From Cloeon dipterum (taxonomy: Eukaryota > Arthropoda > Insecta > Ephemeroptera > Baetidae): a DNA stretch of 64,000 nucleotides. The number at the start of each line of letters is the position of its first letter. Position 1 is the first letter of the stretch. A program made the translations under genes and the position numbers. The notes beneath the pieces are model-generated. The model made no database searches. It was not told where the DNA came from and saw only the letters and a list, made by a program, of their open reading frames with translations. Shown in pieces: positions 29,961 through 36,151 of this stretch. Location: NCBI RefSeq assembly GCF_949628265.1, contig NC_088787.1, positions 1,912,501 to 1,976,500 of the forward strand. Reading direction: 5' to 3'.

Positions 29961-32900
29961 ATGCCTGAGGGGCCAGCAAATCTAGGATATTTCGTGTCAA
30001 AAGACCAACCTAGAAAAAACGCAGACAAGTATAAGCATCGTTGAAGTTTTTCAATATAATATTAATTTAAAATACATATCATCAGTGTCTGCGTGCTTGT
30101 CGTTCACTACAACTTTAAAAATGCCAAGGACGAATCCTGGATTCGGGAAGGGGATGCTCAGGACGTAGAGAATCTGGATAAAACCTTCAGAGTGAACCGG
30201 AACTGCAACTTCTGCAGTTGGTTGGCACCTGAAAAAGGGGAGTTGCTTGAACTTCTCTCCGATCATGAAAACATATTAGGAAAATTCGGCTGTACAGGTA
30301 AAATAAGGAAACACTTGTCGAAGAATGTGTTATATCGTATCGATTTTACGGATTTTACAGATGTTCCATCAGTGTTTATGCTTTACATTCTTTCTCACGG
30401 TGACAGAGATGGAAAAATCTTCACTGACCACTACCAGAAAGAAGACCCGAATGACTTTGTTTGCTTCACTACCGCGGAGATATTCGAGTCTCTGAAAATG
30501 CTGACTGGTTTTGAGGATTGTCTCAAATTAATAAACTTCGGTGTAAGTCTCTATTTAGATATCATCAAGACTCGTATTAAAATAATTTATTTATAGCCAT
30601 GCAGAGGGGAGCTGATAGACACACTTTTTTACGAAAATGACGAAGATTTCAAGAACGAAAATTCCTGCCGAATTACCTACAGCCCTATGATGAGAAACAC
30701 GGTTGTGTTCTTCTCAACAGTCGAAAGTAAGACTAATATAAATAAGAATTCGATTCTCTAGCTTAATTGCAATATATTTCCCAGCGACCAAGGCCAAACG
30801 AGACCAGAAAGGAACAACATTCGCCTTGCTTACGTGCAAGGTCTTAGATTCGCTTGAGAAGGACGAGAGTCTCATAAATGTCCTGACAACTATTCAATAT
30901 GAAAGCCACGAAATTGCGGGCAAAGAGAAAAGTGGACAAACTCCCGAAGTAAAGATATTTTCTCAGGACAGAAGTTTTGTCTTCTCAAAGTGAGTTTTCA
31001 TGATTGAACAGGCATGGCCTGGGTTTGAATAAAAATATGTGATGAATAATTGAATGTTTCAGAATTTCTACCAATGATTCATCTTCATCGACAATTGAAG
31101 CAATGAGTATTAAAAATAAAAGGGAACGCGAGTTTTACTCGTGGAAGTCAAGTTCAGGGGAAAACTTGCGCCACCGCCTTGCGTTCCTAATTTCCGCAAA
31201 GCCTAATGATCAGTTGAAAGAAATGAAATGGGCTTTGTCGCAAAACCTAGATTTTGAGACCCACGAAAGGATGCTGAGAGGAAATCCATGGGTGTCCATA
31301 AATGAAGGTTTAACGACTATTTGGAATCGATAAGCTGGAAATTATCAATTCATATTTTAGCCTCAAGGATCGACTCAGACATTGGCTGCATTTTCCTGAT
31401 ATTTTTTGGGCAAGTGAGTGAAAACAAGGTCACGAATGAGGTTTGCGTAGAAGTGGACAGTAAAGAAATTGCAGTATCTGAAATACTGCTCAAGTTTATT
31501 GGACCAAAAAACGAACAGTGGATTGGAAAACCCAAAATATTATTCCTTGTGAATCAGGAAATGAGCTCAACTGACGCCGTAAGTGCATTTTTTGTTATTT
31601 ATTCGATCTCAAAAAATTTCAAATTGGTTAAGATATCGAAATAGAATCATATAAAATTATAAAACTCACTGTACTTTGTTTCTAAAGATGGGATCAACAC
31701 AGACCAAGATGAAAATATCAGCAACAAACCACAGTGGCTGGTTAGTCCTAATTTTGCACAACAAAGGTAGATTTTGTAGATTTTCAAATAAACTGTGAAT
31801 AAATAAAAAAACTTCCATTTATGTAGAAGAACTTCAAAAGCTGATCGAAATCTTCAAAGGGCAAGAGTTGAAAAAGGAGAAAAGTCTTCAAGAAGTGCTC
31901 GCAACTCTGCTCATTTCCGACTCAATCGTAAATAGGGATATGCTTAACTCGACGCTCCAATATCTTCTCAATTTTCCCGACTGGCCAAGGTCTTTTGTTG
32001 AATTTGACTTTTCAGTTACTAGGCCTGAAAAATCTCGACTAGAGCGAGTCAGCTTTAAAAGCCTGGTGGAGGAATTAGCAACAGAAAAACAAATCTGGCT
32101 CTTGAGTTCCGTCGCAGGATCAGGAAAAACGACAATTCTCAGGGAAATGGCTTTTCAACTCGGGAAACTAAATCCAGAATTAAGAATTTTACGTATATCA
32201 CTCCCGAGAGTTTCGCTCACCTCTCTAAAGAAGAACGTGACTGAGATTGAATTTCTCGAGAATGTCACGCACAATTCACACGAGGAAATCATAAAAAGCA
32301 TAGCAAGTAAGCAATGTGTTGTGCTTCTTGATGGGTTTGATGAAATCCTACGTCCTGTAAACCAAGAAAAAATTCTGAATGTTCTCGAAGCTCTACAAAA
32401 GAAGCAGATATCAGTTTGGATCGGAACGAGACCTCACGCAGCAGAAGCAATCCAAAAGCGGATTTCAAAAGCGGTTTCAGTAGAGATTAATCCCTTGAAT
32501 AAAAAGCAACGAATCGAGTTAATGAAGCTAGAGACTGGAAAAAGTCAAGACGAATGTGAATTGTTCATTGAGAACTTTACATCAAATGACATCTTACAAA
32601 ATCCTTTGCACCTTTCTCTGGTTGCAAAGTACGAGGTCGAAGGAAACTTGTACCAAATCTACGACCAGGTTGTGCGACGGAAAGTGGAAGACTCTCTGAT
32701 CAATAAAGGATTTGATAAAAACAATGAAAACGTATTTCCCGGAAAACTAAACGAAGGTTTGGAACGTCTTCAAGAGGTAGCAAGTTGCCACATCAGAGGA
32801 GTTGAACTAATTGGTGGAAGTAGAAAAGAACTAGAAAAAATTAACTACTATGGCATTGCCACGTTTGAAAACAATGAAGTTATTTTCGTTCACCAGACTT

Positions 32901-35900
32901 TCACAGAATTTCTTGCAGCCCAGCATTTCCTATGTGAAATCGACGATGTTTGCGATTACGAATCACAGACCAGCATCGAAGATAGTGCAAGCTTATTTTA
33001 CGAGAAATCGTCAATGTGGTGCCTAACGTTTGTCGATTTATTCTATTGCACTAACGAGGAAAAGATTGAAGAGCACAAAGCATCCTATATTCCAGTCATG
33101 AAGTTGAACCCAGATAGATTTTTGGAATCGACTGTTACCGCTGGTTGTATTAATATCTTCAAAATGATTTACCAAAATATCACCTTCAGTAAAAACCAAG
33201 AGGGTAATTGTATTTCCGTTGAAAAGGATAAGATTCTTTTGTTCAAAGCAATAAATCATGCGGAAGATATTGCAATCATGATGCTCGACACAGATTTGAT
33301 CAACAGTGATGAAGATGAAGAGTTGCTAAGTATTTTACCCTCCCTGTTGGAGGCAGTAGCTAAATCAAACGCAACTCATTTGTTTGAGAAGCTGAGGGAA
33401 AAATTTCCTAGATTGGCAGAGATGATCCACTCGAGAAAATTGTTAATAGATGCTGGAGTGATTGCTGCAAGAAAGAATTGTGGAGAAATCCTTGAACTAC
33501 TTCTTCAACTTGACATAGATTTTATGGAAAGTTGCGGACGACTTGGTAAACAATTCGAAATGGATAAAGAATATGGACACGCTCTTCATTGTGCTATTAG
33601 TTTTAAAGCTAGAAAATGCGTGGAAATTTTGCTTAAGCATGGCGCGAAGACGGCCATAGATAGTGATGGTTTCATATTGGACCCTTTGATGCTGGCTGTA
33701 AGAGAAAATAACCTAGACCTGGTCAAATTCGTTACGGAGGAAAATATCAGTGGATTGCAACGCAACAAAGATGCTTTCGAAATCAATGTGAAATCAGATT
33801 TGAATTCTTTGCATTTTGCTATTCAAGAGAGGGGCAAAAAAATTGCAAAATTTTTAGTAGATTCACGTATGGGAAACGTGGAAAATGACAATGAAGAAAA
33901 TCCTCTAGAATTTTCCGCTACAAATAGATATTTTGAAATGTGTCAATGGCTTGTTGACGAAGCAGGGGTTGACGTGAACACTTTACGACCAAGTGGAGAT
34001 CCAAGAGATTGGTCCTTGGATGACAAAGTATGCATGGACCATTTCTTAATTCTGCAGAAGAGTGACATTGACATGAAGGACGCAAGAGGGAAAACTGCTC
34101 TTCATTGTGCTGCGGAACATGGACATCTTGAACGTGTCCAAGAATTGATCAATGCTAAAGCAAATGTCCGAGCTGTAGACGAAGATGGATGGAACGCTTT
34201 TCATTTTGCTTGCAAAAGTAACAGTGGCCACAAAGAAAAGGTGATTCGACTGTTGCACGGCACTGACAGTCAGCTAGCCAAGGAGAAAACCGGAAATGGT
34301 CAAACAGGGCTGCATATTCATGTGGGATTCCACTACTGCCCCGTTGTCTCAGTTGACGTAGCGCGTTTTCTGGTCGAAGAGATTGGAGTTGACGCAAGAG
34401 CAGAGGACAACAAAGGTTGCACTGCGTTGCATATTGCATTTTACAAAGGATATGATGACTTGGTTGACTATTTGATGACAAAAGATATCAACCTGGAAGT
34501 TAAAATACGACGGGGCCAAACGTGCATTCATATCGCCGCTGAATTAGGTGATTTAAATGCTCTGCAAACTTGGATAGAACTTGGAGGAAACTTGGATGTG
34601 GCAGATGAAGATGGATCGACTGCGTTGCATTATGCCGCTAAAAAAGGACACCTGCAATTTGTGAAAATGCTTTTAGCCCACATGACCGAGGAAGCAAAAA
34701 ATCCAGATATTGGTGAGGGCAGATTTATGAGATTGTTATTCTCACTTATAGGAGGTTCCTCACTGAGAGATAACCTGAAATTGAACAGGCGTGACAATAA
34801 AGGAAGGACAGCTCTGCACCTTGCTGCTAGCTCAGAAAACGTTGATTTGGTGAAATTAATGCTTGAAAACAACGCAGATTTAACTCAAACGGACCTGGAA
34901 GGAAAGAATGCATTGCATTACGCTATCAACGACAAAAAAATGTTACGATTCCTCAATGAGAAGAACGGAGATCTTGTGAAGCAGCGTACAAAAGATGGAA
35001 ACACAGCTCTACATCTGTCAGTGAAAAATTATCATTATGATGATAATGGCTTTGCAGATTGGGGTACGCAAGAGGACGAACAAATCGCTCTGTGGATTAT
35101 AGAACAAGTTGACGACAACGTTTTAAACGCGAAAAATGATATCGGCGATTCACCACTCTTAATGGCTTGCCGAAGAGGTTTCTTGGAGGTCGCCGAATTG
35201 CTGCTGACCAGAAATGTTGAGGTCAATGTCTCAGATTGGACGGGTAGAACTGCAATGCACTACGCCGCAGAAGAAGGAAACTTATGTTTAGTGAAGCTGA
35301 TGCTTGAGAAAGGTGCGGATTTGACTCTAACAGATCGCGAGGGAAAGAATACTTTGCACAGCGCAATGCGTTGCTATGAGATATTTTTATTTATTCACGA
35401 GAAAAACCATGATTTGTTTAAGCAGCGCTTGAAAAACGGAGACACAACCCTCCATTTGGCCACAAGATCTTCCATTGAAGATGACATATTTCTTTGGTTC
35501 GTTGAGCAATTCAAAAATGATTTGAATGTATTAAACAACGCGGGTGAGACACCGCTTCTGCTGGCTTGCAAGGAAAAACAATGGACCACTGCTAAAATTT
35601 TGCTGGCGAAAACCGTTGATATAGACGTGAAAGATGGAAATGGAAGAACAGCCCTGCACTACGCCGTAGAATTGTATAAATTCAATTCGCTAAGTGATAT
35701 ATTTGCTTTTGAATTGGTGCAAGAGCTGTGCAATAGAGGCGCAGATTTGGCTTTGACTGACAACGACGGCATGAATGCTTTTCACCATGCGATAACAAAC
35801 TATGACATGGCTTTACGCATTCATAAGTTAAATGGTGATTTGGTTCAACAGCGATTGAACAATGGAGATACAACTCTACATCTGGCAATCAAATCAGACG

Positions 35901-36151
35901 AACGCAAAAGGAATGATGAAATTCTTATTTGGCTTGTGGAGCAAGACGTCGTTGATTTAAACGCAAGAAATGATTTGAACGAAACCCCGCTGATTCTGGC
36001 TTGCAAGGAGAAGCTCTGGGATAAGAAATTTTTTGGAATACTATTGTCTAAAAATGTGAATGTAAACATAAGAGACATTGAGGGGAAATCTGCTCGTGAC
36101 TACATTGACGAATCACGAATCTTGTCCAACTCATCTATTAAAAAGGTTTGA
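29961..36151 (+). CDS. Caspase-pseudocaspase-NACHT-ankyrin protein (1908 aa)
   Basis: Model: join(29961..30028, 30086..30542, 30597..30726, 30785..30989, 31063..31307, 31361..31578, 31688..31766, 31827..36151), 5727 nt in frame. Residues ~8-290 form a caspase p20/p10 unit. It has Arg43 in IREGDAQD, the catalytic His127 in LSHG, the catalytic Cys177 in FGPCRG (formed across an intron), then FFSTVES and the p10 helix FALLTCKVLDSL. Residues ~300-500 are a second caspase fold lacking both catalytic residues. NACHT follows: Walker A AGSGKTT (K568), Walker B VVLLDGFDEI (~632-641) and GTRPH (~667-671). About 20 ankyrin repeats fill ~1049-1900 (cores such as GKTALHCAAEHGHL and GSTALHYAAKKGHL). No signal or membrane helix, so it should be cytosolic. 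The start is the ATG just after a strong acceptor (29951-29952). By analogy with NLRs the NACHT would drive oligomerisation, the ankyrins would bind a ligand and the caspase would be the effector; that is inference. Confidence 0.88.

Follow-up and report, generated by a model that had tools for sequence, protein, structure and literature searches.

A predicted mayfly protein joins a caspase, a pseudocaspase, a NACHT switch and ankyrin repeats, and belongs to a large NLR-like family

The stretch of DNA analysed here (the window, 64,000 nucleotides) comes from the mayfly Cloeon dipterum (Baetidae) and occupies positions 1912501-1976500 of contig C2 in a 190-Mb genome of 10 contigs. On its forward strand, between 29961 and 36151, lies a gene that encodes a caspase, a second caspase-like domain, a NACHT domain and ankyrin repeats. 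An earlier note, made from the letters alone, had read the caspase-NACHT-ankyrin combination as one polypeptide, and Pfam matches to C14, NACHT and ankyrin families confirm it. The eight exons joined in that note do translate in phase and without a stop, into 1908 residues; 21 of these residues, corresponding to 30298-30360, are absent in relatives, and the equivalent flanks lie 55-67 bp apart in 18/18 paralogues in which both were found (a spacing of 3 would mean no intron), so that this segment is a 63-bp in-frame GT..AG intron which the note overlooked. With this correction the gene model comprises nine coding exons that encode 1887 residues.

Translation and splice sites define the first two exons: exon 1 (29961..30028) carries the start ATG at 29961, and the database protein P0002 begins alike (MPEGPA.LGYFVSKDQ); exon 2 (30086..30297) encodes the first half of the caspase p20-like part. 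The second half is in exon 3 (30361..30542), with the catalytic His106 (SHG, codon 30396-30398). Exon 4 (30597..30726) supplies the catalytic Cys156 (PCRG, codon 30600-30602) and the p20-p10 linker, and exon 5 (30785..30989) the p10-like part. The second domain begins in exon 6 (31063..31307), after a linker, has its core in exon 7 (31361..31578), where the His and Cys positions are not conserved, and continues in exon 8 (31688..31766) with an NHSGWLV strand. After a 60-bp intron (31767..31826), a single open frame in exon 9 (31827..36151) holds the end of this domain, the NACHT domain, a linker, the ankyrin repeats and the stop. Rfam gives no match above its gathering scores within the window.

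That a protease and an NLR-type switch (NLR, NOD-like receptor) share one insect polypeptide, as the note had proposed, is borne out by paralogues and annotated models, although insects are as a rule said to have no such receptors. Twenty NACHT loci were retrieved for comparison. In 19 of them NACHT is accompanied by equivalents of every caspase and pseudocaspase exon after the first, and the short first exon is detected in 18 of those 19, in some weakly; the remaining locus, L009, has no caspase or pseudocaspase exon equivalents. A frame-consistent GT..AG junction is found in 16 to 19 of the 19 paralogues at each of six boundaries; the search tolerated about 10 bases either side and 4/109 junctions differ in phase from the window, so individual junctions may be due to chance. 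The junction into the NACHT exon is present in 19/19, all in phase 1, with the donor AAG in 17, and the intron before it measures 55-68 bp in 17/19 and 1744 and 2512 bp in the remaining two. The annotated proteins P0002 to P0005 are collinear with the model from its first residue to at least residue 1895. The architecture, which the note suggested seeking in other Ephemeroptera, is present in Neocloeon triangulifer, where P0041 is collinear over residues 2 to 1850 and has the Pfam order C14, NACHT, ankyrin.

Peptidase_C14 is the sole Pfam match in the N-terminal 301 residues; the next 236 (domain 2) give no match above cut-off, and no CARD, PYD, Death, DED or BIR adaptor is found by Pfam in either part. 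Domain 1 has the caspase fold and C14A homology, the best matches of its family profile being animal caspases; a family profile was required because a single-sequence PDB search with domain 1 was uninformative, with chance matches alone (galactose mutarotase, PCNA; best E 0.14). Of the proteins returned, 82 match the window's N-terminal module, and 67 full modules were compared: the window's and the best module from each of 66 proteins, 13 of the modules being from Neocloeon, with the proviso that C. dipterum loci may count twice, as there are two annotated assemblies. The catalytic His is kept in 66/67 modules and the catalytic Cys in 64/67, and domain 2 has no conserved His or Cys at the matching places, which marks domain 1 as an active-type caspase and, judged by its residues, domain 2 as a pseudocaspase, a caspase fold without catalytic residues. 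The note's second caspase-like domain is thus a pseudoenzyme. The profiles of domains 1 and 2 give no match when compared (probability 0.3), and the caspase homology of domain 2 rests on other comparisons, including the family profile; a predicted model of both domains together has a predicted template modelling score (pTM) of 0.81. The caspase pocket for the P1 Asp is built from Arg, Gln and Arg, the Gln normally preceding the active-site Cys. The first Arg is found in 63/67 modules, and the second, in p10 and aligned to SWR of caspase-7, in 41/67.

The NACHT domain (32111..32524) scores 39 bits in the exon-9 frame against a Pfam cut-off of 26.7, as a NACHT-clade STAND NTPase, and its Walker A (AGSGKTT, 32114-32134) and Walker B (VVLLDGFDE, 32318-32344) motifs have equivalents in 19/19 paralogues. 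A simple consensus scan counts 18 ankyrin repeats at 33434..36067; no leucine-rich repeat (LRR) family matches the exon-9 frame at E 0.01, and the repeats are ankyrin alone. The C-terminal LRRs and the N-terminal adaptor of a bona fide metazoan NLR are absent; NACHT, the minimum of an NLR-like protein as defined in an excerpt of PMC8260672, is present. Across the window protein and P0002-P0006, ankyrin face positions vary more than the rest (0.48 vs 0.32, P 1.6e-6); when eight C4 genes were counted position by position, two repeats were detected and the counts are little informative.

The gene belongs to a family that numbers 86 or more C. dipterum loci, and in this respect the note's account was incomplete. 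The NACHT profile has 101 matches across the genome. When the surroundings were surveyed with the window's N-terminal module (best 150 of 184 matches) and nine of 36 C14 matches, 64 of the 101 had a module match at most 6.5 kb upstream and in the same orientation; a second module query supplies 21 of the remaining 37 and L026 is one more, making at least 86/101, a lower bound because the matches listed are partial and the best candidates alone were scored. The largest clusters lie on C4 (35.24-36.04 Mb, 23 NACHT matches; 34.25-34.87 Mb, 11) and on C2 (0.79-1.29 Mb, 10; 1.61-1.94 Mb, 7 including the window). Database entries for family proteins are uncharacterized or automatically named. In two protein searches, all proteins with C14 and NACHT among the matches listed belong to C. 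dipterum or N. triangulifer; both searches need shared 5-residue words and one scored the best 7986 candidates by such words, so absence of the combination outside the two mayflies does not follow from them.

Several relatives depart from the standard layout. The Neocloeon proteins P0093 and P0127 are divergent caspase proteins, the NACHT match of P0093 being sub-threshold, and possibly represent a family branch that is either early or degenerate; a search with P0093 returned itself, one further Neocloeon protein and no others. P0110 from the tick Ornithodoros turicata is a NACHT-ankyrin protein with no caspase match, so the NACHT-ankyrin part may predate the caspase fusion in arthropods. P0087 (C. 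dipterum LOC135942178) continues from C14-NACHT-ankyrin into a pair of BIR stretches and a RING match below threshold, and P0097, from another C. dipterum record, has C14 and two BIR stretches; unless these are merged gene models, each chain contains both a caspase and caspase-inhibitor domains. Ten relatives (P0029, P0030, P0032, P0044, P0046 to P0051) have about 180-285 additional residues before the caspase; this stretch has no caspase match, and the two scanned alone gave no Pfam match above cut-off.

Ratios of nonsynonymous to synonymous substitution (dN/dS) were obtained by a simple Nei-Gojobori count. Across 15 pairs of the authors' choice, two including the window, they are 0.17-0.75 for the caspase (14/15 with a value), 0.11-0.47 for the pseudocaspase and 0.17-0.56 for NACHT: the first three domains are under purifying selection. 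Across the 25 closest pairs of retrieved loci (none with the window, members shared between pairs), the post-NACHT part (linker and ankyrins, 23 computable) has dN/dS of 0.53-0.99, and the NACHT part 0.21-0.51; effector and switch are thus conserved, and the ankyrin part evolves faster. In L012-L028 of the C4 cluster the synonymous divergence (dS) is unequal among modules within one gene pair, as if gene halves had been exchanged between paralogues; for L028-L021 it is 0.353 in the caspase, 0.105 in NACHT and 0.124 after NACHT.

Caspase and pseudocaspase are separated by a linker of about 25 residues. It is divergent apart from an Asp with Gly, Ala or Ser directly after it (D[GAS]), which 57/67 modules contain; 1000 trials in which each linker was shuffled average 24.2 such modules and reach 36 at most. 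Glu followed by a small residue shows the reverse in the same linker (14 observed, shuffled mean 27.2), and the p20-p10 linker has D[GAS] in 41/67 modules (shuffled mean 16.6, maximum 30). By module identity the counts are 29/37 below 70%, 19/24 below 55% and 6/9 below 45%, values reached by 0, 0 and 41 of 2000 shuffles, respectively. When 96 segments of 23 positions are taken along the module, those in the linker rank top (53-57), the next reaching 42 and the median 13; the linkers are slightly longer than 23 positions, which gives these segments a small advantage. In the window the Asp-Ser codons lie at 31076..31081, within Asn-Asp-Ser-Ser. The enrichment is the pattern expected from self-processing, and the sites are predicted self-cleavage sites.

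The locus probably belongs to an extensive mayfly family of NLR-like receptors, each equipped with a protease of its own, which it would release with no adaptor. In the apoptosome (APAF-1/CED-4/Dark) and the inflammasome, a STAND switch activates a separate, CARD-recruited caspase by proximity; the mayfly protein is alike in combining STAND switch and caspase, but its caspase is built in. Caspase-8 and c-FLIP(L) are two proteins joined via death-effector domains, whereas the mayfly tandem shares a single chain with a NACHT switch. The architecture, the active sites, the predicted cleavage sites and the faster ankyrins suggest an inflammasome- or apoptosome-like role in immunity or cell death, with steps modelled on general knowledge of NLRs, the apoptosome and caspase-8/c-FLIP. 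The ankyrin repeats would bind a pathogen- or damage-derived protein; NACHT would exchange nucleotide and oligomerise, bringing caspases together for proximity activation; the adjacent pseudocaspase may act as an inbuilt partner or scaffold, in the way that c-FLIP serves caspase-8; by cutting the Asp-small sites the caspase would release itself from the receptor; and the freed caspase would set off cell death or a different defence output, needing no CARD, death-domain or other adaptors.

Several points weigh against this proposal. The window has GPCRG, with the pocket Gln replaced, and the p10 Arg is kept in little more than half of the modules, so that P1-Asp specificity is uncertain. The linker enrichment is weak below 45% identity, and 3/13 Neocloeon modules miss the Asp-small site. 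Post-NACHT dN/dS never exceeds 1, and positive selection is not shown; other exposed ankyrin positions are as variable as the face, whose variability is partly explained by exposure and is not used as proof.

Among other explanations, a real receptor whose caspase serves regulation or development (germline, moulting, gut turnover), in a family that expanded for non-immune reasons, is unlikely but deserves the most weight: NACHT and ankyrin domains occur in non-immune proteins too, and the immune role is read from sequence, yet a big clustered family with faster ankyrins and conserved effector domains resembles a recognition repertoire. It is improbable that the protein is a protease-dead or decoy scaffold whose caspase fold is retained for assembly rather than catalysis. 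Domain 2 is already such a pseudoenzyme and the S1 pocket residues are variable; the catalytic pair of domain 1 is nevertheless almost invariant and cleavage-like sites are enriched in the linker. Two neighbouring genes, one caspase-like and one NACHT-ankyrin, misread as one, are very improbable: six-frame evidence is unable to demonstrate a transcript, and the annotated models P0013 and P0017, which contain a major royal jelly protein (MRJP) domain, look merged with neighbours, but the conserved in-phase junction leads to rejection of the two-gene reading, the frames of the NACHT exons open a short way from the acceptor, and gene models annotated in two mayfly species span the junction. Contamination or recent transfer from a microbe, for which bacterial caspase-STAND combinations on record could be cited (PMC8195603, in excerpt), is extremely improbable in view of the introns, the chromosome-scale contigs, the many loci, the best profile matches to animal caspases and a family common to a second mayfly genus.

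Directly downstream, at 37842-58836, several yellow/MRJP-like frames stand in series (MRJP E 2.2e-21 and 3.7e-21 in the two scanned); P0013 and P0017 are database models that join MRJP with caspase-ankyrin sequence. At 1610-21664, on both strands, lie several related leucine-rich-repeat-like frames of the type V-L-x-x-V-S-x-x-A-P-N-V-R-H-L-K-I; the one scanned has a sub-threshold LRR_14 match (E 0.0039).

Known systems, as described in excerpts of the papers cited, share parts of this design. The NLR and NACHT expansions of coral, sponge, ctenophore and zebrafish have a central NACHT, C-terminal repeats and large lineage-specific expansion (PMC4083563, PMC12909245, PMC11797021, PMC4852459); metazoan NLRs use adaptors such as CARD, Death or DED and in many cases LRRs, whereas the mayfly protein has an active-type caspase and a pseudocaspase before NACHT, and ankyrins after it. 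A figure legend in the sponge paper names a caspase (CASc) domain without details (PMC12909245). Bacterial STAND/NACHT conflict systems include caspase as one of the effectors linked to NACHT-clade or AP-ATPase switches (PMC8195603); their repeats and adaptors are other ones, and the mayfly protein has an animal-type caspase with a pseudocaspase after it. Fungal NLRs (e.g. PNP_UDP-NACHT-ANK) are alike in effector-NACHT-ankyrin layout and variable ankyrins, but their N-terminal effectors differ (PMC4986451). According to an excerpt of a 2012 paper, protostomes, flies and worms among them, had yielded no reports of NLRs (PMC3308963). Among the papers listed in searches of open-licence literature none deals with these mayfly genes, and the main text of the C. 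dipterum genome paper (PMC7250882) never mentions NACHT, caspase or ankyrin.

A broader reading, a little too uncertain to be called probable, is that Baetidae evolved at least 86 single-chain inflammasomes (the C. dipterum count), with their own caspase, an intramolecular pseudocaspase partner and mostly a self-cleavage site, that ankyrin recognition is thereby converted straight into protease release with no adaptor, and that NLR immunity was in this way rebuilt in an insect lineage. Cloeon dipterum is established as a laboratory model, according to an excerpt of PMC6446309. If the reading is true, insects would be able to evolve a NACHT-receptor repertoire with a built-in caspase, an active caspase and a pseudocaspase would be tied within a single chain, and the family would offer a one-protein model for a STAND switch firing a caspase.
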